Below, one piece after another: positions 48,256 through 64,000 of a stretch of 64,000 nt of DNA; position 1 is the first letter of the stretch, and the number at the start of each line of letters is the position of its first letter. Source of the DNA: Bacteriovorax sp. BSW11_IV (GTDB lineage: Bacteria > Bdellovibrionota > Bacteriovoracia > Bacteriovoracales > Bacteriovoracaceae); the NCBI RefSeq assembly GCF_000447755.1, contig NZ_AUNE01000029.1, positions 23,699 to 87,698 of the forward strand. The letters are read 5' to 3'. The notes under the pieces were generated by a model, which was not told the DNA's origin, ran no database searches, and was given only the letters and a program-made list of their open reading frames with translations. The position numbers and the translations under genes were made by a program.

Positions 48256-49029
48256 ATGTATTACGGAGAAGCAATGGAGCGCCATTCTGCCAATTTGTGC
48301 GAGAAATTGCGCGAGCGCATTCGTTCTTACAAAGTAGCTCATCCTGGACTGAGTTCAAGTCAGATTGCAAAGTCATTCAATATCTCTTCTTCGGCCTTCG
48401 GCCGTCTTGAGAATGGTGATATTCGCTTTCCTTCACTTGATCTAGTTCTTAGAGTTCTGCGTGGGACAGGTTGTAAAAATATTCTGCAATATCTTGAAGA
48501 ATATTTTCCAGAGATCGCAAAGACTTATAAAGAAGTTTATTTGAGTAATGGAGAAAGTCAGTATGTAGATTTATCTCTAGAGAAGTATTTTGAAGATCCT
48601 GATCTTTTTATCTATATGTTGCTGTCGTATAGCGATTCAGGTTTTTCAAGAGTTGAAGTAGAGGAATTGTTTGGCCTTACAGGTGTAATGGCTATTGAAT
48701 ATTTGAAGAAAAATAATGCAATTGTTGAACGCAATGGTATTTTTTTTGGCTCTGATAAGTTTAGTGTTATGTCTGGAAAGTCTATAAAAAAACTTGCTAT
48801 AAATACTCTGGAAACCTGTCATGAGCCTACAAGTGATTCTTCATTTCTTGTGTACTCAAGCCAGTCTATTGATTTAAAGAAAGTAAACAAAGAGATTACA
48901 GCTTTACTTCGTGAAACTCATACAAAAATGCAACAAATTTTAAATGATAAAAATAATTTTGGTGATGATCATTACTATTTTTTGATGTCAGCAGGAAGAA
49001 TTCTAAAAGGAATTGGGGAGGAAGCCTAA
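48256..49029 (+). CDS. HTH regulator of the module with 49029-50229
   Basis: 257 residues. An Xre-like HTH at ~33-72 (LSSSQIAKSFNISSSAFGRLENGDIRFPS) is followed by a helical linker and a winged-helix-like unit at ~130-165 (VEELFGLTGVMAIEYLKKNNAIVERNG). A helical C-terminus ends near residue 257 (KVNKEITALLRETHTKMQQI). The layout matches TIGR02147/DUF4423-type proteins. It is closely related to the third gene of the trio (49456; RLENGD versus RIENGD, RGTGCKNI versus KGTGCSDI). Strong CAGGAGA site. Its stop overlaps the next start by one base. Confidence 0.72.
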   Translation: MYYGEAMERHSANLCEKLRERIRSYKVAHPGLSSSQIAKSFNISSSAFGRLENGDIRFPSLDLVLRVLRGTGCKNILQYLEEYFPEIAKTYKEVYLSNGESQYVDLSLEKYFEDPDLFIYMLLSYSDSGFSRVEVEELFGLTGVMAIEYLKKNNAIVERNGIFFGSDKFSVMSGKSIKKLAINTLETCHEPTSDSSFLVYSSQSIDLKKVNKEITALLRETHTKMQQILNDKNNFGDDHYYFLMSAGRILKGIGEEA

Positions 49030-49445
49030 TGAAAAAAATTATCATATTATTATATTTTTTGAACTTGAATATATTTGCTGCAGGTGGTGTAGGTGGAGGT
49101 ATTGTAACCGAAACAGGTGGCGGAGGAGGAAAAGACTCCTACGTCAATGATTCATGCCAATTCAATCAATTAACGAATCAGTTTGAATGCATGAAATATG
49201 ATGTTGTTAAACAATACAGGGAGAATGGTCAGCGCTGGGACACGCTTATTAATGATATTAATAAAAGAGATTTTATCGGCGTTGAAAGTTTCAACTTGAA
49301 GTATGGACCTGAGTTTAAAAAGATTGCTCCTTCAATAACAGGTGAGTATGAGTATAACAACTGCGTTGAACTTCAGCACGGTGAAGATATTTCTGACTGT
49401 TTGAAAAGTGATGTTGAACCATTTTTAAATTTAAAAATTAAATAG
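49029..49445 (+). CDS. Small exported Gly-rich-linker protein, unknown
   Basis: 138 residues. Signal peptide MKKIIILLYFLNLNIFA, then a Gly-rich linker (AGGVGGGIVTETGGGGG), then ~100 residues with four Cys (DSCQFNQ, FECMKYD, NNCVELQ, ISDCLKS). Same architecture as the exported protein at 15401, but the mature domain is not obviously homologous. It is sandwiched between two related HTH regulators, with 1-bp overlap upstream and 10-bp gap downstream. Probably periplasmic or secreted. Function unknown. Confidence 0.72.
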   Translation: MKKIIILLYFLNLNIFAAGGVGGGIVTETGGGGGKDSYVNDSCQFNQLTNQFECMKYDVVKQYRENGQRWDTLINDINKRDFIGVESFNLKYGPEFKKIAPSITGEYEYNNCVELQHGEDISDCLKSDVEPFLNLKIK

Positions 49446-49455
49446 GCGGTGTGAA

Positions 49456-50229
49456 GTGTACGGATTGTCATTAGAACAAGAAGCATTGCCTTTAGCGAAA
49501 ATTTTGCAAACGAGAATTGCAAAATATAAGAGGGAGCATCCAAAGTTTAGCTCCCTCCAGATCGCGACAAAATTTAAAATTTCAGCGAGTGCCTTTAATC
49601 GCATTGAAAATGGCGATTTGCAAAGACCTGCAATTGAAAGTGTTCTAAGAATCCTAAAGGGGACAGGTTGTTCAGATATTATGGGCTTTATTAAGTCCTA
49701 TTACCCCGAGCTGTCTGACACTTATGCATTTATCTATGAAAGTTCATTAAAAGAAGTTGAACCCATCTTGGAGAAAAATGATTATCTTGGTGATTATGAA
49801 TCATTTTTATTTTTCCTTTTGGCCGAATGTTCGTGGGGAATCTCATCCTCGTATATTATGAAGCACTATGGAAGAACAGGGTTTTTGGTTGTCGAAGAGC
49901 TTATCAATAATGGTCTATTAAAAATAGACAAAGGTGATGTTGTTCGTTGTTGCTCACCAATATTTAATGAAACTCTTGATGCTAAAACAAAGAGAGATTT
50001 GATCATTAATACGATTAAAAAATCAAAAGATGTTCAAGATAATCAGAGCAATATGAATATAACAGTGGCCTCATTGAATTATTCTAAGGCAAAAAAAGAA
50101 ATTGATAAAATTATGGCCGAGGCCCAACAGAAAATTGATGATCTTACAAACAATCCTGATCTCGTTGGACCTGATTATTTCTATTTTGCATTCATTTCAG
50201 AAAAAATGGCAGCAAGTGATAGAAACTAA
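49456..50229 (+). CDS. HTH regulator, paralogue of 48256
   Basis: 257 residues from a GTG start. HTH at ~33-72 (SSLQIATKFKISASAFNRIENGDLQRP), helical middle, winged-helix-like unit (SYIMKHYGRTGFLVVEELINNGLLKIDKGD) and a C-terminal helix (KAKKEIDKIMAEAQQKIDDL). It is a clear paralogue of the first regulator in the trio with the same length. The ribosome site is poor (AGGCGGTG), so translation may depend on coupling with the upstream gene. No membrane segment. It probably binds DNA; the target is unknown. Confidence 0.72.
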   Translation: MYGLSLEQEALPLAKILQTRIAKYKREHPKFSSLQIATKFKISASAFNRIENGDLQRPAIESVLRILKGTGCSDIMGFIKSYYPELSDTYAFIYESSLKEVEPILEKNDYLGDYESFLFFLLAECSWGISSSYIMKHYGRTGFLVVEELINNGLLKIDKGDVVRCCSPIFNETLDAKTKRDLIINTIKKSKDVQDNQSNMNITVASLNYSKAKKEIDKIMAEAQQKIDDLTNNPDLVGPDYFYFAFISEKMAASDRN

Positions 50230-50474: not shown

Positions 50475-50501
50475 AAAGGCAGCTCTAAGGCTGCCTTTTT
50501 T
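50475..50501 (+). terminator. Terminator of the small lipoprotein gene
   Basis: Stem AAAGGCAGC / GCTGCCTTT with loop TCTAAG, followed by TTTTT. It lies between convergent genes and may also end the minus-strand transcript. Confidence 0.82.
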
Positions 50502-51000
50502 ATTGTGGCGAAACGGGAAGAATTTTAGGAAGTGCGCTCTGTTCGCTTCGCTCTTTGGCCTCTCTTTCGGCCGTCTCTTGTGTTTTAAAGGCCAGCTCAT
50601 GAAGGATATTTCTATTCATTCCAATTGGCGGCGGGGCGAAGTAATATCTTTCAAATTTTTTGGCAACACAGTCTCCAAATGAAATATTTTCAAAATCATT
50701 CGAAACGGCTTCAGATGATTCAACACTTCCATTCTCTCTCAATTTGAAAAGAATCTTGATAACACCTTCATTCATTTCGGGCTTATTTTCAAGATATGAT
50801 AGATAGCATTTTTGTATATCTTTTGCGTTCTCACGAATTGTTTTTGCAACTTCTTTTTGCTTGTATGCTACTGCAATTTTTGGATCAATCGGAGCAGGCG
50901 CAGAATTGGCTTTTTGCTGGCCTGAGAAGTTGCGACCTGTGAGGAAAGCAACAATTACGATTAAAACAACAATGATCAAGTTTTTAGAATCCATCTTCAT
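50500..51000 (-). CDS. Membrane-anchored AgmX/PglI-like domain protein, downstream of the giant gene
   Basis: 166 residues. A single N-terminal membrane anchor (~8-22, LIIVVLIVIVAFLTG), then a domain at ~55-145 with the AgmX/PglI pattern: IQKCYLSYLENKP (Cys-Tyr), LRENGSVESS, FGDCVAKKFERYYFAPPP (second Cys). It resembles the domain at the left end of the window (YCYQKELEKSP; SCVANVL; FPEP). Charged, Pro-containing tail. It begins 33 bp after the giant repeat gene on the same strand and is likely co-transcribed. A role in export, anchoring or energising the giant protein is an inference from context. Confidence 0.7.
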   Translation of the reverse strand: MKMDSKNLIIVVLIVIVAFLTGRNFSGQQKANSAPAPIDPKIAVAYKQKEVAKTIRENAKDIQKCYLSYLENKPEMNEGVIKILFKLRENGSVESSEAVSNDFENISFGDCVAKKFERYYFAPPPIGMNRNILHELAFKTQETAEREAKERSEQSALPKILPVSPQ

Positions 51001-51033: not shown

Positions 51034-51312
51034 TTAAGGATCAGTAGTTACACTAAATACTACACCGTTTGATAAAATTAGAGAAGAGTCATATGCACAA
51101 ATTCTGAACGCATAAGTCGTTCCATTTGTGAGTCCACCTTCCAAATAAGTTGTTGTCGCGCCTGCATCTACAATTGTCCCCGAGGTACAATCTGCCGGAG
51201 GAGTCGTCCCCACGTTGTAGGCGAACTGGTAACCCGCATTGTAGTTTGATGTATGATTCCAGTTTATCGATACAGAATTTGACGTTGTTGTCGTGCGAAT
51301 GTTTGTTACTTC
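51034..51312 (-). repeat. C-terminal single FN3 domain
   Basis: One FN3-like unit (SVSINW ... ADCTSGTIVDAG ... AFRICAYD) forms the C-terminus, unlike the doublets between propellers. Confidence 0.8.
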
Positions 51313-54300
51313 AAAAACTCTATAATTATTTTCAAAAAATAATACAGAACCCGAATTCGTATTGCGAAGATCGTTAGGAATCATATTTTGATTATTGCTT
51401 AGATTTCCAAGGTCACCACTGTCTTTTGGCTCTCCAACGGCAATTTGATTCCCGTGGATCGCAACACTTGCACCAAAGTTTAGCCTTAAGTAATTTCTAG
51501 GGGACTTAATCATGGCCTCTTGTGCCCAAAGAGTACCAACTCGTTTAAATACATGAACAGCACCACTGTCCATCAAAGATGAGTTTGAAGTAGGGTTGGT
51601 GCTATTATAAATAACACTAAAATCAGAATCTTCATTTGGTGCTGAAGCAACAATAGTATCTCCTTTGAAATCCATTGCATGTCCAAAGTCTTCAGAAGAT
51701 CCAGAAGAATTCGACTTGATAAATGCCTCTTGGGCCCAGATACCATTTGTCTTTCTATAAACAAAGATCGCACCTGCATTTGTTGCAGAGTTATTTGTTG
51801 AAGCTGTCGTACCATTAGTAACGCCTGTTAATGTACTATCTTCAGCAGGGGATGTTGCGACAATAGTATCATTATCGAACTTAATTGTTTCACCTAAGCG
51901 GTCATCAGAATCTGGATTGATTTTCTTTATAAATGCCTGCTGTTGCCAAGATCCTGCGACAAATTCGTAGACATATATGGCCCCAGTGTTGAGACCTGTA
52001 TCTGTAAGGTGAGTTGTTGGTCCATTTATAATAGTACTTTCAATAGAGTCTTCTTCAATTGCAGCGACTGCAATATGTGTATCATTTCCAATGGCCACAG
52101 AATGTCCAAACTTATCTAAGAAACCACTATTCGCGGCCTTGATATAGGCCGTTTGATTCCATATTGATCCATTGAAAGTGAAGACATAGGTTGCTCCACT
52201 GCCATATAAACTTTCATCAGAGCTTGCGCTACTTCCTGTTGTAATTGTATTTTGGTTACTTGCCTCGAATGGAGCACCAACTGCAATCAGATCGCCTTTG
52301 ATATCAACAGAAGTTCCAAATAAATCACCGGCCGTATTGTTAGAGGCCTTGATGTAAGCTTCTTGAGTCCAAGTACCAGCATTGTTTTTATAAACGTAGA
52401 CAGCACCACTTTTTGTATTCGAATTATCACTTGATGCTGTTGTACCATTCGTTATAGTTGATTGAGAGCTGCTTTCATTTGGAACACCAACGGCAATTTT
52501 ATCACCATGAATGGCAACACTCGTACCAAAGTTATCATTTTCGCTCGGATTCGAGGCCTTGATAAAGGCCATGTATTGCCAAGCATTTCCTACTTTTTCA
52601 TAGACGTGAACAGCACCACTATCTATTAGGGAGTTATCTTGTGATTGAACTGAAGTAATTGTTGTTTGATTACTATCTTCAAAAGGATGACCTACAACAA
52701 AATACTTCTCTGACATAGCAAGAGTTGATCCAAATGCATCATTTGATTCAGGAATTGGTGCTTGTAGCATTCCTTTATAATTCCATCCACTGGATTGAAC
52801 TCTTGCACTTCTTGTAACACCAGTTGTTTCGAGAGCACTAGCATCGTAAGCACACAGACGTGTTGTATACTGATCAAGTGGAGTTAGACCTGTAATTGAA
52901 TATGTTGTTACTAAACCAAGATCTAGTGAAGTGCCTGAATTACAATCGACAGGTGCAGTGTCGCCTAAAGCGTAGGCAAGCTTATAGCCTGTCGTAGCTC
53001 CAGGACTAGCATCAGTCCAAGTTAATGTAATGCTATCAACAGTAGTTGAAGCAATCGAAACATTTGAGGCCTCTTTTAAATCAGAATCTGTTGTGTAAGT
53101 ATAGACTTGCCCAGTCGAATCATTACCATCCACATCATAAGAACAGATTCTAACACCATAAGTTGTGTTTTGTAGCAGACCCGTTAAGACATAATTACTT
53201 ACATTACCTACGTCTATAACTGTTCCTGAATTACAATCTGCTGGTGCACTTCCTTGCTGATAGGCAATTTTATATCCAACGGCACTACCTGAATTTGTTA
53301 ACCAGCTAAGAGTTAATGAGTTATTTGTTTTGCTCTCGAGGGCCACTGTAGAGGCTTCAAATAATCTTTTCTTATTTCTATAGACGTAAACAGCACCTGA
53401 ATTGACACTGTAAATATTAGTTTCATTAGTTACTGGTCCATTAATAATTGAACGGAAGCTCGAACCTTCACCAGAAGAACCAACAACAATAGTATCACCT
53501 TTTATAACAACATCTTCTCCAAATTGGCTTCCAAGCTGCGAGTTGCTTGCTTGGATGTAGGCTTCTTGTTCCCAACCTGCTGCAGTTCTTCGGTAAACGA
53601 AGACTGAACCAACATCCCAGAAAGCGTCGCCATCTCCGTAAGTACTTGCATTAGGGCCATTGAGAATAATATTTCCGATACTAGGGTCACCTCTGTTTCC
53701 AAGAACTAAAGTATCTCCGTCCAATGAAAGCGAAGTTACATTGCTGTACCATTCTTCATGGACTCCAGTATTGCTTAATTTAATATAGGCGTCTTGTTCC
53801 CAATTTCCTGCATTTTTCTTATAGACGTAGATCGCTCCAGCGCCTCCCCAAGAATTATCACTAGAAGTTCCTGTTCCATTTATAATTGTAGTTGTAAAGC
53901 TGTCTTCGCCTGAGGCCGAAACAATTAGATAATTATTTTTAAGTTCAACTTCGACACCAAAATTATCATATGATTCAGAATTTGCCGCCTTGATGTAGGC
54001 GTCTTGTGTCCATAGATCATCAGTGCGTTTGAAAATATAGACAGAGCCCGCATCTGGATTGGAGTTGTTCTCAATAATCACGCCATCATTAGAAATAGTT
54101 GTTTGATTGCTATCTTCTCCTGGGGCACCGACAGCAATATAATTATCTTCAATTGCGATGGAGATTCCAAACATATCTCCGGCCTGTATGTTTGTAGGCT
54201 TGATAAAGGCTTCTGAGTACCAACCTTGGCCTTTATTTCTAAAAACATAAACGGCACCAGCACTGCTATTTCCTGAGGCATTTGAGTCGACGGTTTGCTC

Positions 54301-57300
54301 GCCGTTTTGAATATAGTTTGCGACAGTTCTTTCTCCAGAAGCACCAACTATAATAGTATCATTGTATGATGCTAATTCTTTTCCAAATCCGTCAGTATTC
54401 ATAACAAATTTCGGCTTAATGAATGCTTCAGGAGTCCAAACAGAACCCACTTTGTTGAATATATGAATAGCTCCAGCCGAGTTACCATCGCCTTCAAGAG
54501 TATATTTACCATTAAAATAAGTGCCAGATGGATTATTATCATTTTCAACACTAACGGCTAATTTATTTCCAAAGAAAGATACATCTTGTCCAAAACGATC
54601 TCCACTAGCTGCGTTTGGAGGTTTGATGTAAGCTTTTTGCTCCCAATTATCTCCCGTTCTCTCAAATATATATACGGCCCCAACGGAACCAGATTCTTGT
54701 GGGGAAACTGTAACAGACGAGCCGTATTCAATTTCTTTTGTTAAATAAGTGTCATATGTAGATGATGCTGCGATTTGCTTTCCATCAAAATCAATTTTTT
54801 TACCAAAACTGTAGAGTTCTTTTTCGTTTGTATTGGGCTTGATATAAGCTTCTTGATACCAACCTCCGACTCGAGAAATTGCATTTATTGTTTCTCCTGA
54901 GCTTAGGTCTCCAAGAGCATTATATGAACATACTCTGAACGACAGGCGAGAGTAGTGAGGGAAGTTTGTTTCTGTATGAGTCGTTACATTACCCACATCA
55001 ATAATTGTTCCATCTGTACATGATGTTGGAGGAGTTGTTCCAATATTAAATGCGACCTTGAATCCAGTTGTACTTGCGCCACCTGAAATCCAATTTAAAG
55101 TAACTGATTTTGAATTGTCTGCAACGGCCGTTAAGCTCGTTGGATTTGGCGGAGGGTTTGGTTTTGTGACTGTTACAATGGCACCATCGCTATATGTCGG
55201 AGTATTATCATATCCACAAACTCTAAATGAATATGTGAGCCCTGGAGTTAGTCCTGTAACAGTGTAGTTATCAACGCTACCGACATCGATTTGAGTCGCA
55301 GTGTTACAGTCAAGAGGAGCCGTCGTTCCTGTTTGATATGAAATCTTGTAGCCAGAAGCATAGGCAAGGCGATTCCAAGTGAGTTTTATATTTGTGTTGA
55401 TGTCAATTGAACCTCGCAGATCCACGATATCAAATATACGACCAATATAGCGATAAATGTAAACAGCACCACTGTTTTGTGAATCATTAGAAGTGCTAGC
55501 GATTTCATTGTTCGTAATTTCTGTTAAGTAGGCTGATTCACCTGGAGCACCGATAGCAATGGTGTCTCCACTCATCGCAACGGCGGTTCCGAAGTTATCG
55601 TTGGCATCGGAATTTATTGATTTTAAGTAGGACTCTTGACTCCAATTAATTCCATTGTAGCGGTAAATATAGGCCGCACCACTATTTTGGGCATCATTAA
55701 GAGGACTTGAATTTAATGTAATACCTCTTTGAGATGAATCTTCATCTTTGGCACCTACAACGAGAGTGTTTTGTCCTAATGATAATGAAGAACCAAAATG
55801 ATCCTCTGTGTTTGCATTAGAGGCCTTGATGTAAGCTGTTTGATTCCAGTTTGAACCGGACCTTTCAAATACATAGACAGCACCAGAACTTAAAGCATTA
55901 TTGTCCGAACTTGCAGACGGCCCATTTGTAATAGTGATTTCATTACTGTCCTCTTCTGGAGCACCCACTGCGAGCTGGTCACCTCGTAATGCAACAGCAC
56001 TTCCAAAATAATCAGATTCGTTGTTATTAGGGGCCTTGATATATGATTCTTGGGCCCAATTAGCACCAGTTCTCTTATATATGTAAACTGCACCACTGGC
56101 CGAAGACGAAGAGTCGCTTGAAGCGGTGGTACCATTTATAATAGTCGTGCTATTGCTATCCTCTTTCGGTGCTCCAATCGCTACGGTGTTTAAATCAACA
56201 GCAACAGATTTGGCGAAGAAATTTCCACTATCGTTGTTGATCGCTTTTATATAGGCTTCTTGTGTCCAAGAATTTCCTGTTCGGAAATAAATATAAGCAC
56301 CACCACTATCAATACTTGTATTCGTCGCGCTAGCAGTTGTTCCGTTGATGATAGTTGTTTGATCTCCATCTTCACGATATGCACCCACAACAAGCGTGTT
56401 TTCATTTAAATCAATTGCACTACCAAATTCATCATCGATATCAGGATAAGGCGATTTTATATAAGCTTCTTGTGTCCATACATCATTTGCGATTTTATAA
56501 ATATAGACTGCACCACTATCTTTGGATGAGTTGTCTGCAGAAGAAGTTGCTCCGTTGGTAATTGTGTTTTGGTTACTGTCTTCGAGTGGGGCACCAACCG
56601 CAATTGTATCTTTATGAATGGATACGATTTGTCCAAAATTATCGCCAAGATCACTGTTACTTGATTTGATAAATGTATGAAGTGCCCAGTCCTCATAAGT
56701 GCGTTTATAAATATAGACGCCCCCGCTTGACTCAGCGTTATTATTATCAATAGCAGTAATGTCTGAAGTAATGATTGTACTTGCAGTGTCCTCACCAGGT
56801 GCACCAACAATAAGTGTATCTGCAAAAAGATCAACTGAGCTTCCAAATAAATCAAATGGATCATTGTTAGCTGTTTTAATAAATGATTCTTGATACCAAA
56901 GATCTTTTAGAGTATTCGCTGTTGCTGTTAATCCTTGTCCAATTATATTGTTATTATCATAAGGACAAACTCTAATAGAGTAGGTGTTGTAGGCCAGCAA
57001 ACCTGTTAATTTATAGTTTAGAACGTTTCCAACATCTAAGTTCGTTTCACTTGTACAATTAACAGGAGGAATGTTACCTGTCTTATACGCCAATCTATAT
57101 CCCTGAATATTTGCAGATTGTACTGCCGTCCACTGGGCAATGAAAGTCGATGTTTTAATATCGTTGATACTTAATGTCGCTGGTCCTCTTGGTGGTAGTG
57201 TTGTTCTGTGGGTGAGGGTTTGCATCAACGATAATTCTGCAGAAGCATTGTAGCCACAAATTGTAAAACTGTAGTTTATTCCCGGTGTGAGATTGGTAAA

Positions 57301-60300
57301 GGTATGAGTGTCGACCCAGCCTACATCAATCGAATTACTTCCCTCGCAACTCGCTTGTGGAATTGAACCCATGACATAAGCAATTTTATAACCAGTGTGA
57401 GCTGTGGATTTTCTCCACTTAAGTGTAATATTTCTAGAGTCGGTATAGCTGGCAATTAAATTGGCCGGAGAGTATCTATCAATTAGGTTTCTATAAATAT
57501 ATACTGCACCAGTATAGCCATTGTTGTTGTCTTGCGGTGGGATCGGTCCGTTTACAACACCAGAAACTTCCGAACCTTCTTTTGGAGCACCTACAACAAG
57601 AGTGTCGCCTTGAAGATCAACAGTTGAACCAAAAGTATCATTTTGTCCTGCATTTCCTGCTTTTATAAATGCTTCAAATTCCCAGAGTCCATTTTCTCTT
57701 GTAAAAGTATATACAGCACCGCTGTTTAATAAGTTGTTGTCTATGCTTGGTAGATCAATATTTGTAATATAATTTTGATTTGTATCTTCTTGATATGAAC
57801 CAACAGCAATTCTTTGACCACTTATGGCAACAGATGTACCAAAGTAATCTGAACTATCTGGGTTTGGGGCCTTGATATAAGCATCTTGTTTCCAAATTCC
57901 ATTGTCTTTCTTATAAACATATACTGCACCACTAGTAGCGCTATCTGTATTGGTTGAAGAGGTTTCACCATTTATTATATTTGAAGTATTACTCGATTCA
58001 TTAACTACACCTGCAATTATATAATTTCCATCAACATCAATATTGTACCCATACGATAATCCATCAATGTTATTTGAAGCTTTTATATAAGCTTCTTGTT
58101 CCCAGAAATTATCACTTCTTTTATAAACATATATTGCACCAGAGTCGCTTGCATCATTATCCAAAGCAGAAGTAGACCCGTTAATAATTGATGTTGATAT
58201 AGAATCTTCACTCGGTGAACCTACAACAAGAAGATCGCCTTTTAAGGCCACACTTGAACCGAAATAGTCTTGAGAACCATTATTGCTCGCCTTAATAAAG
58301 GCCTGCTGTACCCAAGTTGATCCATTGAAGTAATAAATATATGTTGCACCACTTGCATAGCTATCAGAATTATCTATAGGAGCATCTGAAGAATTGAAAA
58401 TGTTGGTTGCATTACTACTATCGTAATCTGCACCAATGGCAATTGTATTTTCACTTAATGATACATCGATACCGAACTGTTGATAACTCTTGACCAATGG
58501 AGGACGAATGTATTGTTCTAATGCCCATGTGGAGCCTGTTCTTTTATAAATATAAACCGAGCCGGCCCTATATAGATTATCATTAGTGACAAAATCAGGA
58601 TCTTTACCATCGACAATAACTGTATATTCTTGGCTGTTTTCAAAATTTGCTACCGCAATTTTGTCTCCACTCAAGCTAATTTGATCACCGAAAGCACCAT
58701 AGAGTTGTGGATTGTATGCTTTAATTAAGGCTTCACCTGCCCAAGTTTGTCCTGTTCTTCTGTAAATGTAGACAGCTCCAGAGTCCCAAAGATTGGTTTG
58801 CACTGTAGGGTCAATTGTTGTCGAGTTTGTAATTGAAGTGATGTTTAACTTATCATCAATCGTACCAACGGCGACTGTGTCATCATCTAAAGAAATTGAA
58901 GAACCAAAATAAGCGGTGGCAAATAAATTATTTGCAAAAGATTTCAAAAATGCTTCTTGGTACCAACCAAAATCAGGAGCATTAAGTAGAGCACCTTTCG
59001 TATTTCCTAGTGGATAAATACCACAAACGTTTATTGAATAACCCTTTCTGTGGGTGAGCGATGTTAATTGATATGATGTAACATTGCCGACATCAATAGT
59101 TGTTCCGGTGTTGCAGTAGTAGTTTTCTGCATATCCTTCGCTATATGAAATTCTATATCCTGTAACTGGAGCTGAACTAGCGTCCCAACTCAAAGATATT
59201 GAAGTATTGTCACGAGCTGTAATTTGCAAATTCGCCACTTCTGAACTACTTGCGAGTGTTTCAGTTGTTATTGCAATACCTGCAGAAAGTTGAGAACTTG
59301 GATCGTATCCACAAACTCTAAAAGAATAAGAGCGAGCATCCAGCAGTGAGTTCACTGTAAAAGTATTTGTATCACCAACATCAATTGTTGTACCAGAGCT
59401 GCAATCAGCAGGTGGTGTTAGTGATTGAGAGTAGGCTATCATGTAGCCGGCATTGTTTTCACCTGTCTTGATCCAATTCAGTGTTACACTGTTTTGTGCA
59501 GGTGTTGCAGCTAGTTCATATGGATCAAATGGATCTGATTTATTGGTGAAGATATGTACAGCACCTGAGTTTGTAAATCCGAATGATTCACTGAAATTAT
59601 TAGAGTAGAAAACGCCAGAAGCTCCTGAATCGTTATTATTAGTACCTACCGCGAGAAGATTGCCTTTTAAATTCAGAGAGCTACCGAAATTAATATTAGA
59701 CTTTGGATTGGTTGGTTTGATAAACGCAATTTGATTCCATGTTTCATTCGTTCGTTTAAATAAATATACAGCACCACTTGCACTAAGAGATGTGTCTGTA
59801 GATGCTCCCGCTCCGTTTGTTGTGAAATTTTGATTACTATCTTGCTTGTAAGCACTGACAGCTAGTAGGTTCCCAGATATTGAAACGGCATGGCCGAAAT
59901 TATCATTACTATTTACATTGCTTGGTTTGATATAGGCGTGCTGTTTCCAAGTTTTGTTATCACGCTTATATACAAAAACAGCACCGCTATTTGAGCTGAG
60001 TGTACTTGTCGAAGCATTTGTGTCGCCATTTGTAATTGTATTTTGATTACTGTCGTCTTCTTCCGCACCCACAGCTAAATAATTGTTACTATAGCTTATA
60101 GATGTCCCGAAAATATCGTTGGATGAGTTATTACTTGCTTTAATAAAGGCTTCTTGTGACCATTTATTATCTTCACCTTTGGCAAAAACAAAGACAGCAC
60201 CAGAGTTTGTAACATCATCACTTGTTTCAACAGAACCGCTTAAAATTCCATTAAATGAAGAATCATCTCCAGGGGAGGTCGCGAAGATTAAATTATCTTT

Positions 60301-63300
60301 GGTAAAGACTTTAGTACCAAGATAGTCTGATGAATCATAAGTTCGTTTTATATAGGCTTCAAATTGCCATTTTCCTGAACCATCTTTTCCAAAGATGTAA
60401 ACAGCTCCTCTATTAGAGGAAGTGGAGTATTCGAGAATCGGATCTGGTGCATGGACGATCTGAATTGTAGCGCTATCTTCTTGACTTACACCAACAACAA
60501 TAGTGTTGCCATCTATAGATATAGAATCACCAAATTTATCAGTCGACTGAAAGTTTGGTGCTTTAATAAACGCCTCTTGCTCCCAATTCGTTCCTGTTCT
60601 TTTATAGACATAAACGGCACCAGAATCTGATGATCTGTTATTATTTTCGTTGTTCGAATAATTCCAAATTGTATTTGTTTCAGTGTCTTCATTTGGAGCT
60701 GTAACAATTAAATAGTCTCCCTGAAGATCAATTGAAGCACCGAAGTTGTCATTGGTTTCAGCGTTATTGGCTTTAATAAAAGCTTCCTGAGTCCAATCAT
60801 TTCCCGACTTTCTATAGATGTAAACAGCACCAGAGTTTGGAGCGAGAGTATCTGTTGGTGTTCCAGTTCCATTTGTGATTGTTGTTTGTGAGCTTTCTTG
60901 TCCTGGTGCACTGATGGCCAACGTGTCACCATCTAATTTTACACTGTCACCGAAAAGAGCATTGCCGCTAACATTTGCAGCTTTGATGAAGGCACTCTGA
61001 TACCAGCCATTAAGTCTAGATATTACTCTACCTTCCGTAGTATTAAGTGCTCCATCATAAGCACAGACTCTAAAGTAATATTCAGTTGCAGAATCAAGTC
61101 CTGTAATATTATAAGTTGTGACATTTCCTGTATCAATTACAGTGCCTGCAGAACAATTGGCCGGCACAGTGTTGGCCTGGTAGCTGATATAAAACCCTGC
61201 AGTTGCACCACCAGCGCTTATCCAGGCAAGTTGAACATTTGTGCGAGTCTCAGAGGCAATTCTTAATTCAGATAATTCAAATGGAAAATCTTGAGTTGCT
61301 GCGCTTAGTTTTGCTCCATATGAATATTGTGGAACTGCATTATAAGAGCAAATTGTGAATGAATAATTTGAGTTGTGTTGTAGCCCAGTAACAGAAGTCG
61401 AAGTGACATTACCTAGATCAGTACTCGTTCCACTATGGCAATCTGCTGGAGCAATATCTCCTAAAGCGTATGCAAGCTTGTATCCTGCTGCAGCGGGAGC
61501 AGCCGTCCATGTCAGGTTTATATTATTTGTTCCTGTGGTTGATGCCATGAAATTCGTCGGATCACTTGGGTAGATGATTCCTGTTGAAGTCGATCTTGTA
61601 AGAGTATAACCTTCATGATCACCAAAAGTTGCATTGTATGAACAGATACGGAAGCTATAATCATTTGTTGTTAGGCCAGTAAAAGTATGAGTCGTTACGT
61701 TCCCAACATCGATTGCTGTTCCTGTGTTACAGTCTGCTGGTGCTATTCCACCTTGTAGATAGGATATTTTGTAACCAGTAGCTCCTGCTACAGCATTCCA
61801 AGATAATGTAACATCTGAACCATTATCAGCAGTAATGGCAAAATTGGATGGAGCAAAAAGCCTCGAGTAATTTCTAAAAACATAAACTGCACCAGAAGCA
61901 CTTGCAGTATCGTTAGTATCAAAATCAAAATTATGAAATATGCCTTGTGAAGGGCCATCTTCTGCAGATGCTGCAACGACAATAGTATTTCCTTCAATAG
62001 TAACTTCAGAACCAAAACTATCATTAGAAGTTGGGGCAGGGGATTTTAAATAAGACTCTTGTGACCAAGTTGTTCCATTTCTTTTAAATACATAAACTGC
62101 ACCTGATGATGATAGATCATCATTTTCAATAATGGCTGCATTGTTAACAATTGTGTTTGATGAGTTATCTTCACCAGTAGCTGCGACGACAAGTGTATCT
62201 CCACTTAAGTCAATTCTAGTTCCAAAATAATCACTGGCACCACTATTAGAAGACTTTAGGTATGCTTGTTGTTCCCATGTTCCATTGTTGTTTATAAAAA
62301 CGTAGACAGCTCCTGAAGAAGAATTGGAGTTATCTGCAGAAGCTGATTGTCCATTGGTAATTGATGTAGAATTTGAATCTTCCCCAGAAGCTCCGACAGC
62401 AATAGTGTCACCGCTTACAGCTACTGATGCACCAAAAGAGTCACTTATTTCTGAGTTTACACTTTTAAAATAGGCATATTCATACCAAGTCGCTTGATAT
62501 CTTCTAAATAAGTATACTGCACCACTTGAAGAACTAGAATTATCTGGATTCGCCGCAACACCTGTTGAGATGTGGGTTTGATTTGAATCCTCACCAGTTG
62601 CACCAACAACAAGATAATCTCCATTTAATTTTACGCTAGTTCCAAAACTGTCACTGGCACCGATATTACTCGACTTAATATAAGCTTCTTGTGCCCAATT
62701 TGAACCTGTTCTTTTATAAACATAAACAGCGCCAGAACTTCCAGCGGTATCATCTGTTGGCGATCCTGTTCCATTTGTAATTGTGGACTGAGCACTATCT
62801 TCACCTGTAGCTGATACAATAAGTGTATCATTTTCAATTTGAACCTTATTTCCAAAATAGTCATTTGCACCAGCATTACTCGCTTTAATATAGGCTTCTT
62901 GTTCCCAGTTTCCTGCATTTAGTTTGTAAACATATACAGCACCTGAACCTGAACTTGTATTAAATGACGATGCGGTTGGCCCATTTGTAATTGTGTTTCC
63001 TGGACCGTCTTCTCCTGTTGCACCTATCACAATAGTATCACCATCAATACTTACATTACCTCCGTAAGCATCACTCGAATCAGGTGAAACAGCTTTAAAG
63101 TAAGTACTTTGTGTCCATAGAGAATTTGTTCTTGTAAAAAGATACGCAGCACCAGAACTGGATAAAGAATTATCTGTAGAGCTAGTGCCGTTTGTTACTG
63201 TTGATTGATTAGAGTCTTCACCATATGCTCCAATAATCAAATTATTTCCATTAATAGAAATTGAGCGTCCAAAATTATCACTAGCTTCACTATTATCGGC

Positions 63301-64000
63301 CTTCAAGTAGGCTTCGAAATACCAACCATTTTGAATATAGAATGCTTTACCTTTACTGTTCTGATTGCTGGCATTGTAGGCACAGACTCTAATGCTGTAG
63401 TCTTGATTAATAGTGAGACCAGATAGAAGATGAGTGAAATTGTTTCCAATATCGGTAATTGTTCCACTAGTACAATAGAGATCAGGTGCTGTTGCACCAG
63501 GAAGGATGGCCACTACGTAACCGCTTGCTGCAACTGAACCCGCTTCCCAAGTGGCCTGTGCAAAATCATATCCTCTGTTCGATATGTGAAGATTTGCAAC
63601 TTCATAAGGTTTTTGCGTCGTTGATGCTGAGACAGTTTCACCAGCACTAACATCTCCACTTCCATTATATGAACAGATTCTAAAAGAATAAGTTTCAGTC
63701 TCTTGAAGAGATGAAAGTGTATAACTTTCAACATTGCCAACATTGACAATCGTCCCAGAACTACAATCTGCAGGAGGAGTGTCTCCCAAAAGGTAGGCGA
63801 TGTAATATCCCGTCGTGATATTATCTGCCTTTATCCATTCGAGATTGATCGAGTTGTCATCAGTGCTAGCAACTCTAAAAGATTTTGGATTGAAAAATCT
63901 TAATTTATTTCTAAATACATAAACAGCACCAGAAAGAGCTGTAGAATCATCAGAGAGGGCATCTGGTCCATTAATAATTGATGTTCCCGTGCTTGATTCA
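51034..64000 (-). CDS. Giant FG-GAP propeller / fibronectin-III repeat protein (5' end outside window)
   Basis: Open frame from the stop at 51034 to the window edge, at least 4,322 codons; the translation continues in frame past the nominal start at 63789. Content: 42 complete FG-GAP-like blades in six groups of exactly seven, plus a partial group at the edge, separated by 14 FN3-like domains. A blade is ~70 residues: EAYIKASN-x-DxFG-x-S-x6-GDTxxVGA-x-EDSN-xTITNG-x-SGAVYVYKR-x-W-x-Q. Seven blades fit a closed integrin-alpha-like propeller. Every FN3 carries two Cys. The protein ends with one FN3 (SVTTDP) and no sorting signal. Likely a surface or secreted adhesin; secretion route unknown. Full length unknown. 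Confidence 0.9.
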   Translation of the reverse strand, partial: ESSTGTSIINGPDALSDDSTALSGAVYVFRNKLRFFNPKSFRVASTDDNSINLEWIKADNITTGYYIAYLLGDTPPADCSSGTIVNVGNVESYTLSSLQETETYSFRICSYNGSGDVSAGETVSASTTQKPYEVANLHISNRGYDFAQATWEAGSVAASGYVVAILPGATAPDLYCTSGTITDIGNNFTHLLSGLTINQDYSIRVCAYNASNQNSKGKAFYIQNGWYFEAYLKADNSEASDNFGRSISINGNNLIIGAYGEDSNQSTVTNGTSSTDNSLSSSGAAYLFTRTNSLWTQSTYFKAVSPDSSDAYGGNVSIDGDTIVIGATGEDGPGNTITNGPTASSFNTSSGSGAVYVYKLNAGNWEQEAYIKASNAGANDYFGNKVQIENDTLIVSATGEDSAQSTITNGTGSPTDDTAGSSGAVYVYKRTGSNWAQEAYIKSSNIGASDSFGTSVKLNGDYLVVGATGEDSNQTHISTGVAANPDNSSSSSGAVYLFRRYQATWYEYAYFKSVNSEISDSFGASVAVSGDTIAVGASGEDSNSTSITNGQSASADNSNSSSGAVYVFINNNGTWEQQAYLKSSNSGASDYFGTRIDLSGDTLVVAATGEDNSSNTIVNNAAIIENDDLSSSGAVYVFKRNGTTWSQESYLKSPAPTSNDSFGSEVTIEGNTIVVAASAEDGPSQGIFHNFDFDTNDTASASGAVYVFRNYSRLFAPSNFAITADNGSDVTLSWNAVAGATGYKISYLQGGIAPADCNTGTAIDVGNVTTHTFTGLTTNDYSFRICSYNATFGDHEGYTLTRSTSTGIIYPSDPTNFMASTTGTNNINLTWTAAPAAAGYKLAYALGDIAPADCHSGTSTDLGNVTSTSVTGLQHNSNYSFTICSYNAVPQYSYGAKLSAATQDFPFELSELRIASETRTNVQLAWISAGGATAGFYISYQANTVPANCSAGTVIDTGNVTTYNITGLDSATEYYFRVCAYDGALNTTEGRVISRLNGWYQSAFIKAANVSGNALFGDSVKLDGDTLAISAPGQESSQTTITNGTGTPTDTLAPNSGAVYIYRKSGNDWTQEAFIKANNAETNDNFGASIDLQGDYLIVTAPNEDTETNTIWNYSNNENNNRSSDSGAVYVYKRTGTNWEQEAFIKAPNFQSTDKFGDSISIDGNTIVVGVSQEDSATIQIVHAPDPILEYSTSSNRGAVYIFGKDGSGKWQFEAYIKRTYDSSDYLGTKVFTKDNLIFATSPGDDSSFNGILSGSVETSDDVTNSGAVFVFAKGEDNKWSQEAFIKASNNSSNDIFGTSISYSNNYLAVGAEEDDSNQNTITNGDTNASTSTLSSNSGAVFVYKRDNKTWKQHAYIKPSNVNSNDNFGHAVSISGNLLAVSAYKQDSNQNFTTNGAGASTDTSLSASGAVYLFKRTNETWNQIAFIKPTNPKSNINFGSSLNLKGNLLAVGTNNNDSGASGVFYSNNFSESFGFTNSGAVHIFTNKSDPFDPYELAATPAQNSVTLNWIKTGENNAGYMIAYSQSLTPPADCSSGTTIDVGDTNTFTVNSLLDARSYSFRVCGYDPSSQLSAGIAITTETLASSSEVANLQITARDNTSISLSWDASSAPVTGYRISYSEGYAENYYCNTGTTIDVGNVTSYQLTSLTHRKGYSINVCGIYPLGNTKGALLNAPDFGWYQEAFLKSFANNLFATAYFGSSISLDDDTVAVGTIDDKLNITSITNSTTIDPTVQTNLWDSGAVYIYRRTGQTWAGEALIKAYNPQLYGAFGDQISLSGDKIAVANFENSQEYTVIVDGKDPDFVTNDNLYRAGSVYIYKRTGSTWALEQYIRPPLVKSYQQFGIDVSLSENTIAIGADYDSSNATNIFNSSDAPIDNSDSYASGATYIYYFNGSTWVQQAFIKASNNGSQDYFGSSVALKGDLLVVGSPSEDSISTSIINGSTSALDNDASDSGAIYVYKRSDNFWEQEAYIKASNNIDGLSYGYNIDVDGNYIIAGVVNESSNTSNIINGETSSTNTDSATSGAVYVYKKDNGIWKQDAYIKAPNPDSSDYFGTSVAISGQRIAVGSYQEDTNQNYITNIDLPSIDNNLLNSGAVYTFTRENGLWEFEAFIKAGNAGQNDTFGSTVDLQGDTLVVGAPKEGSEVSGVVNGPIPPQDNNNGYTGAVYIYRNLIDRYSPANLIASYTDSRNITLKWRKSTAHTGYKIAYVMGSIPQASCEGSNSIDVGWVDTHTFTNLTPGINYSFTICGYNASAELSLMQTLTHRTTLPPRGPATLSINDIKTSTFIAQWTAVQSANIQGYRLAYKTGNIPPVNCTSETNLDVGNVLNYKLTGLLAYNTYSIRVCPYDNNNIIGQGLTATANTLKDLWYQESFIKTANNDPFDLFGSSVDLFADTLIVGAPGEDTASTIITSDITAIDNNNAESSGGVYIYKRTYEDWALHTFIKSSNSDLGDNFGQIVSIHKDTIAVGAPLEDSNQNTITNGATSSADNSSKDSGAVYIYKIANDVWTQEAYIKSPYPDIDDEFGSAIDLNENTLVVGAYREDGDQTTIINGTTASATNTSIDSGGAYIYFRTGNSWTQEAYIKAINNDSGNFFAKSVAVDLNTVAIGAPKEDSNSTTIINGTTASSDSSSSASGAVYIYKRTGANWAQESYIKAPNNNESDYFGSAVALRGDQLAVGAPEEDSNEITITNGPSASSDNNALSSGAVYVFERSGSNWNQTAYIKASNANTEDHFGSSLSLGQNTLVVGAKDEDSSQRGITLNSSPLNDAQNSGAAYIYRYNGINWSQESYLKSINSDANDNFGTAVAMSGDTIAIGAPGESAYLTEITNNEIASTSNDSQNSGAVYIYRYIGRIFDIVDLRGSIDINTNIKLTWNRLAYASGYKISYQTGTTAPLDCNTATQIDVGSVDNYTVTGLTPGLTYSFRVCGYDNTPTYSDGAIVTVTKPNPPPNPTSLTAVADNSKSVTLNWISGGASTTGFKVAFNIGTTPPTSCTDGTIIDVGNVTTHTETNFPHYSRLSFRVCSYNALGDLSSGETINAISRVGGWYQEAYIKPNTNEKELYSFGKKIDFDGKQIAASSTYDTYLTKEIEYGSSVTVSPQESGSVGAVYIFERTGDNWEQKAYIKPPNAASGDRFGQDVSFFGNKLAVSVENDNNPSGTYFNGKYTLEGDGNSAGAIHIFNKVGSVWTPEAFIKPKFVMNTDGFGKELASYNDTIIVGASGERTVANYIQNGEQTVDSNASGNSSAGAVYVFRNKGQGWYSEAFIKPTNIQAGDMFGISIAIEDNYIAVGAPGEDSNQTTISNDGVIIENNSNPDAGSVYIFKRTDDLWTQDAYIKAANSESYDNFGVEVELKNNYLIVSASGEDSFTTTIINGTGTSSDNSWGGAGAIYVYKKNAGNWEQDAYIKLSNTGVHEEWYSNVTSLSLDGDTLVLGNRGDPSIGNIILNGPNASTYGDGDAFWDVGSVFVYRRTAAGWEQEAYIQASNSQLGSQFGEDVVIKGDTIVVGSSGEGSSFRSIINGPVTNETNIYSVNSGAVYVYRNKKRLFEASTVALESKTNNSLTLSWLTNSGSAVGYKIAYQQGSAPADCNSGTVIDVGNVSNYVLTGLLQNTTYGVRICSYDVDGNDSTGQVYTYTTDSDLKEASNVSIASTTVDSITLTWTDASPGATTGYKLAYALGDTAPVDCNSGTSLDLGLVTTYSITGLTPLDQYTTRLCAYDASALETTGVTRSARVQSSGWNYKGMLQAPIPESNDAFGSTLAMSEKYFVVGHPFEDSNQTTITSVQSQDNSLIDSGAVHVYEKVGNAWQYMAFIKASNPSENDNFGTSVAIHGDKIAVGVPNESSSQSTITNGTTASSDNSNTKSGAVYVYKNNAGTWTQEAYIKASNNTAGDLFGTSVDIKGDLIAVGAPFEASNQNTITTGSSASSDESLYGSGATYVFTFNGSIWNQTAYIKAANSGFLDKFGHSVAIGNDTHIAVAAIEEDSIESTIINGPTTHLTDTGLNTGAIYVYEFVAGSWQQQAFIKKINPDSDDRLGETIKFDNDTIVATSPAEDSTLTGVTNGTTASTNNSATNAGAIFVYRKTNGIWAQEAFIKSNSSGSSEDFGHAMDFKGDTIVASAPNEDSDFSVIYNSTNPTSNSSLMDSGAVHVFKRVGTLWAQEAMIKSPRNYLRLNFGASVAIHGNQIAVGEPKDSGDLGNLSNNQNMIPNDLRNTNSGSVLFFENNYRVFEVTNIRTTTTSNSVSINWNHTSNYNAGYQFAYNVGTTPPADCTSGTIVDAGATTTYLEGGLTNGTTYAFRICAYDSSLILSNGVVFSVTTDP
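51315..52790 (-). repeat. Propeller group 6 (seven blades)
   Basis: Starts at SGWNYKGMLQAP, ends at the YRVFEVTN junction. Seven blades; the first lacks the usual WYQEA start and the fourth has one extra residue (GNDTHIAVAA). Confidence 0.8.
52795..53355 (-). repeat. FN3 doublet between propeller groups 5 and 6
   Basis: Two FN3 units (LTLSW and ITLTW strands), each with a Cys pair (ADCNSGT/VRICSYD and VDCNSGT/TRLCAYD). Confidence 0.8.
53360..54870 (-). repeat. Propeller group 5 (seven blades)
   Basis: Seven blades from GGWYQEAYIKPN to KRLFEAS. Blade six is longer than the rest (extra SL in the conserved strand and a Trp-containing loop), and blade one is the most divergent. Confidence 0.8.
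54875..55425 (-). repeat. FN3 doublet between propeller groups 4 and 5
   Basis: Two FN3 units (IKLTW and VTLNW) joined by a Pro-rich linker (KPNPPPNP). Cys pairs present in both. Confidence 0.8.
55425..56905 (-). repeat. Propeller group 4 (seven blades)
   Basis: Seven blades from DLWYQESFIKTANN to GRIFDIVD. It is the most regular group; several loops are near-identical (TTIINGTTAS in two or more blades). Confidence 0.8.
56910..57470 (-). repeat. FN3 doublet between propeller groups 3 and 4
   Basis: Two FN3 units (ITLKW and FIAQW) joined by LPPRGPATL. Cys pairs ASCEGS/FTICGYN and VNCTSE/IRVCPYD. Confidence 0.8.
57475..58972 (-). repeat. Propeller group 3 (seven blades)
   Basis: Seven blades from FGWYQEAFLKS to DRYSPANL. 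Blades one and two are divergent (EDSN motif lost), suggesting relaxed constraint on that loop. Confidence 0.8.
58978..59530 (-). repeat. FN3 doublet between propeller groups 2 and 3
   Basis: Two FN3 units (VTLNW and ISLSW). Cys pairs ADCSSGT/FRVCGYD and YYCNTGT/INVCGIY. Confidence 0.8.
59535..61012 (-). repeat. Propeller group 2 (seven blades)
   Basis: Seven blades from NGWYQSAFIKAANV to DPFDPYEL. Blade four is shortened (EAYIKRTYDSSDYLG). Confidence 0.8.
61020..61855 (-). repeat. FN3 triplet between propeller groups 1 and 2
   Basis: Three FN3 units (VTLSW, INLTW, VQLAW) instead of two, each with its Cys pair (ADCNTGT, ADCHSGT, ANCSAGT). Confidence 0.8.
61855..63330 (-). repeat. Propeller group 1 (seven blades)
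   Basis: Seven blades from NGWYFEAYLKADN to SRLFAPSN. The consensus EDSN and SGAVYVY motifs are well kept. Confidence 0.8.
63333..63895 (-). repeat. FN3 doublet at the left end of the visible protein
   Basis: Two FN3 units (INLEW and AQATW strands) with Cys pairs ADCSSGT/FRICSYN and LYCTSGT/IRVCAYN. Confidence 0.78.
63896..64000 (-). repeat. End of a further propeller group (truncated by window)
   Basis: TSIINGPDALSDDSTALSG followed by AVYVFRNKLRFFNP is the end of a seventh-blade sequence, so at least one more propeller lies beyond the window. Confidence 0.75.

Follow-up and report, generated by a model that had tools for sequence, protein, structure and literature searches.

A giant chain of predicted seven-bladed propellers with a probable lipoprotein start, encoded beside a TonB-like gene in Bacteriovorax sp. 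BSW11_IV

Domain organization of the giant protein

The DNA considered here, a window of 64,000 nucleotides from Bacteriovorax sp. BSW11_IV (contig NZ_AUNE01000029.1, hereafter C29), ends within a minus-strand open reading frame (ORF) of 4,321 codons (51034-63999; P0001) that encodes the C-terminal 4,321 residues of a giant protein and is followed by a small TonB-like gene, the partner. No stop codon precedes the ORF before the contig end, and its 5' end is open because C29 stops at the last base of the window. A blade-anchor pattern matched it 44 times; the match at residue 2973, inside a fibronectin type III (FN3) domain, was discarded, and the remaining 43 anchors, apart from a single leftover at residue 24, fall into six groups of seven, spaced 68-76 residues apart. 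Each complete propeller measures 488-500 residues, or 1.46-1.50 kb. An earlier note on this DNA had described six complete seven-blade groups of about 1.48 kb plus the end of another, separated by Cys-paired FN3 domains like beads on a string, and all of this is borne out.

Read from the open end, all on the minus strand, the ORF contains the end part of the seventh blade of propeller 1 (63901-63999), whose remainder is very likely to be found on another contig of this genome, C45 (L060:3-5042, minus strand), then linker 1 (63331-63900), propeller 2 (61864-63330), linker 2 (61012-61863), propeller 3 (59536-61011), linker 3 (58972-59535), propeller 4 (57481-58971), linker 4 (56905-57480), propeller 5 (55441-56904), linker 5 (54868-55440), propeller 6 (53368-54867), linker 6 (52792-53367) and a last propeller, and it closes with a single FN3 (51037-51321) that forms the end of the protein, without a further sorting domain. 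The linkers are 190, 284, 188, 192, 191 and 192 residues long, with 95 residues after the last propeller, and hold two, three, two, two, two, two and one FN3 in that order. All 14 FN3 domains carry two Cys, 30 residues apart in 13 and 29 in one, and these account for every Cys of the ORF (28 of 28), the propellers having none. In Pfam, FG-GAP_2 (PF14312) matches in 30 stretches with 818 bits against a cut-off of 23 (E 4e-253) and Fibronectin type III (PF00041) in 10 stretches with 309 bits against 25; a single Pur_ac_phosph_N match overlaps FN3 residues. Pfam gave no match to RTX repeats in the window ORF, whose C-terminus is an FN3, and none to a VWA/MIDAS domain in this ORF or in that of C45.

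Contig C45 starts within a minus-strand ORF of 1,680 codons. Its N-terminus, judged by eye, is a hydrophobic stretch ending in a lipobox Cys (C25), with Asp at +2; Ig-like domains follow (Big_5, E 6.2e-11; ten by a recurring motif, with six Cys pairs), and after these come six FG-GAP_2 blades and the beginning of a seventh. The intact homologue P0003, of 5,986 residues, aligns through residues 1-1663 with the C45 ORF (85%) and through residues 1665-5986 with the window ORF (81%), and the one residue left between them corresponds to the codon split by the contig ends. With C45 placed beside the window ORF in this way, the first, incomplete group also reaches seven blades. From these alignments we infer that the two ORFs are very likely one gene, spanning both contigs and encoding a protein of about 6,000 residues that has seven seven-bladed propellers. 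The earlier figure of more than 4,300 residues is very likely well short of the full length.

P0003, P0004 and P0005 have one and the same run order, B7F2-B7F3-B7F2-B7F2-B7F2-B7F2-B7F1 (B, blades; F, FN3 domains), with the sole FN3 triplet after propeller 2, as in the window; the identity figure for P0004 and P0005 is 48%. A lipobox N-terminus was seen by eye in nine of the eleven relatives P0003-P0013, the exceptions P0005 and P0011 being sequences whose recorded start is the Cys or a position just before it. An assembly artefact was rejected, given the lack of any exact 25-base DNA repeat, the run order common to the three homologues and the contig alignment to P0003; the longest internal DNA matches of the giant ORF (12 of 112) are 66-69% identical.

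The start codon of the gene is uncertain. On C45 (L060 4942-5060, minus strand), the frame has no ATG, GTG or TTG that would yield a full signal peptide, the ATG giving only MIALYSSC; the gene may therefore use an unusual start codon, since an ATT behind an AGGG stretch would yield a normal lipoprotein signal. Just upstream of the start lies a gene (L060:5319-7310, minus strand) for a protein of 664 residues that has a lipobox-like start and matches no Pfam family, and farther upstream on C45 are sugar-nucleotide, O-antigen-ligase and acyltransferase genes.

Predicted propeller fold and the number of blades

An AlphaFold2 model of propeller 2, the structure prediction that the earlier note had proposed as a check, shows seven blades closing into a ring (predicted local distance difference test score, pLDDT, 92.8) and matches integrin heads across the whole domain. 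Each seven-blade group is accordingly predicted to close into an integrin-alpha-like propeller. A two-propeller model gave no trustworthy orientation between the propellers, and the DxDxDG calcium loop, searched for as D.[DN].DG, had no match in the window ORF or in the C45 ORF.

The note had further argued that exact seven-fold grouping implies selection for closed propellers. Blade runs were counted among listed matches only, in 120 of 161 long relatives (including the window's own entry, P0002) and in 120 of 7,306 single-propeller matches, with a blade profile built from these same relatives. Seven-blade runs make up 481 of 590 in the long relatives and 109 of 121 in the single-propeller matches; the remainder include runs of 14 and 21 blades and many shorter or odd ones, some of which may hide missed blades. 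Closed rings are predicted, as the claim had it, but seven is typical of the family: it is how these blades close, and the exact seven of this gene, being found in other relatives too, reflects fold closure. As runs of seven prevail throughout the family, chance or free blade expansion was rejected.

The unusual features are how many rings there are and their fixed alternation with FN3. Seven seven-blade runs are also present in 34 of the 120 listed long matches besides P0003-P0005, and rings of this kind and number seem to recur in unrelated lineages. Proteins with such runs are found among P0026-P0057, P0067, P0069, P0072 and others; one carries the name Candidatus Poriferisodalis (Acidimicrobiia), and in several the C-terminus is a hydrophobic helix followed by a basic tail. 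Elsewhere, a 930-residue protein of genome G003 (L066:5508-8297, plus strand) with a lipobox-like start has a single run of 14 short blades, which may be two propellers joined with no linker.

Growth of the array and variation of the blades

To follow the descent of the beads, a tree was built of 68 propellers taken from the window and 15 selected relatives; a five-blade run of P0008 was left out. Window beads 2-7 each group with the bead of the same number in P0003, P0004 and P0005 (support 100/97 to 100/100), and the first beads of these three proteins group at 99/93; such position-wise grouping indicates that the array was complete before these species split and that all beads have been retained at their positions ever since. 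Grouping by position also holds for beads 3, 4 and 5 of P0006-P0008, but not for the second bead of P0008. P0011, P0012 and P0016 have three beads each, and these cluster protein by protein, a pattern that suggests separate amplifications; the beads of P0009 and P0010 have no clear placement or a mixed one. Recent bead copying in the giant gene was rejected, in view of this orthology by position and of the identity of the beads to bead 2, which is 36-44%.

A tree of 96 FN3 domains, drawn from ten relatives and built on a short alignment with bootstrap values that had not settled, places all 47 second or third FN3 of a linker in one clade with none of the 49 first ones (90/80), so the copied unit was likely propeller-FN3a-FN3b. 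Blade identities average 36% at the same position, 38% within the same propeller and 36% for neither, and give no signal of in-register blade duplication between propellers. In a quick tree (SH-like approximate likelihood ratio test, SH-aLRT, only), the beads of P0003 and P0004 cluster apart from those of P0028/P0032/P0047, P0072 and P0020, and those of the Poriferisodalis-related seven-propeller proteins are also placed apart. A common origin of all seven-propeller arrays is not supported by this tree, and such arrays seem to have arisen more than once. The family is a clear natural example of how a large protein grows when a whole folded supra-module is copied.

Within the blades, aligned over 70 columns, Trp 3 and Gly 61 are invariant between beads (42 window blades). 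At the loop columns 14-17, 19 and 41-59 (except 45, 47 and 48), which make up most of the two long loops, identity is only 10-48% when beads of the window are compared with their P0004 orthologues, and 9-28% from bead to bead. Judging from strand order, both long loops would leave the same face of the propeller. Their variation fits a recognition face, and it also agrees with relaxed constraint.

The TonB-like partner and other neighboring genes

The partner gene (50500-51000, minus strand) starts 33 bp behind the stop codon of the giant gene, on the same strand, and encodes 166 residues with an N-terminal hydrophobic segment and an AgmX/PglI (TonB-C-like) C-terminal domain (NF033768, 49 bits against a cut-off of 40); its match to the GltG model is weak (34.7 bits, far under the cut-off of that model). 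The PDB matches to a profile of five partner orthologues at E up to 1 (best 0.0064) were TonB chains in 10 of 10 cases. These five orthologues share two invariant Cys. In the TonB energy transducer a His of the membrane helix binds the motor, according to the accessible part of PMC12204202; no such His occurs within the first 30 residues of any of the five, of which the L061 and L040 sequences may miss a few N-terminal residues. Motor genes were absent among the neighbors scanned by Pfam.

The C-terminal domain as such is common, with matches at E 1e-6 in 72 of 129 family genomes. Scores of at least 97 bits, a threshold chosen after the score gap had been seen, occur in only six of them, the next best being 52 bits. 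FG-GAP_2 is found at E 1e-5 in 12 of the 129, and five genomes carry both it and the partner (hypergeometric p 1.6e-5); without the three profile-building genomes the figures are 2 of 3 versus 9 of 126 (p 0.013), relatedness being uncorrected in both. Across 368 genomes of the phylum, 13 have a partner orthologue of at least 97 bits, which stands beside a propeller gene in seven (G000, G035, G118, G136, G298, G151 and G038), elsewhere in four (G299, G046, G249 and G124) and, in the other two (G066 and G301), at a contig end that cuts off the neighborhood. In G035 a 109-residue ORF separates the two genes, and in G038 the propeller gene is a one-blade remnant. The profile was built from G000, G035, G118, G298 and G038, first noticed in the window or through their propellers, and the less biased set of the other eight genomes has two adjacent, four not adjacent and two at contig ends. 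No partner orthologue was found at the flanked propeller loci examined outside the named genomes, and many propeller loci are without one. The partner lies before the lipoprotein gene in G118 and G136, behind it in G000, G035, G151 and G038, and converges with it in G298. As the lipoprotein has one propeller in G118 and two in G136, the partner goes with the module and not with the number of modules. In G136, a genome of one contig, the two-propeller ORF has 1,821 codons.

In G038 the lone single-blade ORF just before the partner orthologue (L157:177-374, plus strand) is probably the decayed end of a propeller gene. On the other side of the partner in the window, positions 48256-50229 (plus strand) encode two related 257-residue proteins, 32% identical, with a 138-residue ORF between them; the first has a weak helix-turn-helix match, and relatives occur in 7 of 10 genomes searched, including that of the window.

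Proposed function and alternative explanations

A lipobox protein of about 6,000 residues with seven propellers may be a lipid-anchored, many-headed adhesion chain, possibly linked to the envelope by its TonB-like partner, a reading to which we give about an even chance (roughly 0.5). It starts from the domain order and counts, the Cys pattern, the lipobox sequence, the bead-by-bead conservation and the partner neighborhood, and from there we infer surface exposure, binding, contact with the partner and prey as the target. The lipid anchor would fix the N-terminus to a membrane, the outer one being the most likely, with the ten Ig-like domains forming a stalk from which seven propellers on FN3 spacers extend outwards to a free C-terminus. 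Each FN3 would be stiffened by a disulfide, predicted from the Cys pattern only. Each propeller would combine a strongly conserved scaffold with two long, fast-changing loops per blade, on the same face by strand order, giving every bead a loop-built binding surface and the chain its strength through multivalency; the TonB-like neighbor possibly connects the chain to the envelope.

The host family, Bacteriovoracaceae, includes predators, and G035 belongs to the same family grouping as the window. HMG-CoA reductase was found in all three genomes tried (that of the window, G001 and G035) and DXP reductoisomerase in none. Mevalonate genes are named among predator signatures, citing Pasternak 2013, in the accessible text of PMC8560859, and are absent from that paper's own predator. 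Family and isoprenoid genes are therefore compatible with predation and are not proof of it. The same family and isoprenoid traits occur in a congener without an FG-GAP_2 gene, and propeller genes are patchy, being restricted to the 12 of 129 family genomes mentioned above, so that the protein would be at most accessory. As to the partner, the absent His weakens the case for energized TonB coupling.

Other roles appear less probable. The chain might form a sibling mesh or surface layer, binding no foreign cell and using its propellers as compact spacers; this unlikely arrangement would suit the acidic, Ser/Thr/Asn-rich composition of the window ORF (pI, isoelectric point, about 4.4) and the long arrays of the same blades in other bacteria (Magnetomorum, Poriferisodalis, Gimesia), but a pure spacer needs no bead-by-bead conservation, and the one- and two-propeller versions retain a lipobox-like start, an FN3 and the partner. 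A comparably small chance falls to a polyvalent lectin, in which the propellers would bind sugars between their blades, as in the fungal PVL lectin, and the chain would grip polysaccharide. Integrin-like, PVL and tachylectin propellers are placed in one supercluster in the accessible part of PMC8023676, and the likely 5' contig of the giant gene carries sugar-nucleotide, O-antigen-ligase and glycosyltransferase genes, yet the calcium loop of PVL and integrins is missing here. Least probable is an inward-facing, periplasmic lipoprotein that braces the envelope together with the partner: the Asp at +2 of the lipobox, the presumably periplasmic location of a partner with an N-terminal hydrophobic segment and the lack of a recognized export gene among the scanned neighbors agree with it, whereas the periplasm would have to accommodate about 6,000 residues divided among some 31 separate domains, and an FN3, Ig and propeller make-up appears typical of outside proteins.

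A bolder form of the adhesion-chain proposal, which we hold doubtful, is a two-gene contact system in which a lipid-anchored chain of individually conserved integrin-like propellers, grown through repeated copying of one propeller-FN3-FN3 module, would be joined to a dedicated periplasmic TonB-like protein that couples it physically across the envelope. If true, it would give bacteria of a predatory family an integrin-headed, multi-ligand grappling line. With beads that can be tracked by position, a natural ladder of one to seven propellers and a linked partner, propeller function becomes testable.

Comparison with known systems

Publications on bacterial integrin-type propellers go back to 2011 (PMC3192720), and no account of what they do was found in the open-access literature. 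There, FG-GAP together with Bdellovibrio led only to a serine-protease survey, available in part; FG-GAP, fibronectin type III and predatory bacteria had no joint occurrence; and titles and abstract beginnings held no description of the present architecture. As far as the accessible text of PMC3192720 goes, the propellers described there likewise consist of seven-blade units, some in tandem pairs, and differ in having one calcium site per repeat, whereas the giant protein has seven units of FG-GAP_2-type blades with FN3 between them. The VCBS-type multi-propeller proteins of PMC8023676 (same part) can also hold several propellers, immunoglobulin-like domains and a signal sequence, but they use another blade family and show no fixed alternation with Cys-paired FN3.

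Among systems of cell contact, the Bdellovibrio MIDAS adhesin Bd0875 (PMC11003981) and the chimeric fibers (PMC10769870) have roles at the predator-prey interface and, unlike the giant protein, carry a MIDAS domain or fiber-tip folds; in the main texts of both papers, as available, the words propeller and fibronectin do not occur. Myxococcus CglB (PMC12288465, accessible part) is a surface lipoprotein adhesin with an envelope-spanning gliding machinery, and the partner matches a C-terminal domain named after AgmX and, weakly, GltG; CglB, however, is a VWA-domain adhesin according to the title of a cited paper, while the giant protein is built of propellers and its partner is without the motor-binding His. 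SiiE and other giant RTX adhesins (PMC6272769) are also very large, and the present protein differs from them by its N-terminal lipobox, its terminal FN3 and the missing RTX match in Pfam. The N-terminal beta-propeller of integrin alpha is alike in its seven FG-GAP-type blades, its heads being matched by the predicted closed ring, and unlike in its DxDxDG loops, its single propeller in place of seven in series and its transmembrane helix, which a lipobox replaces here. The poly-propeller lipoprotein is real and conserved, and its interest lies in the array, in the bead-wise conservation and in the TonB-like neighbor.
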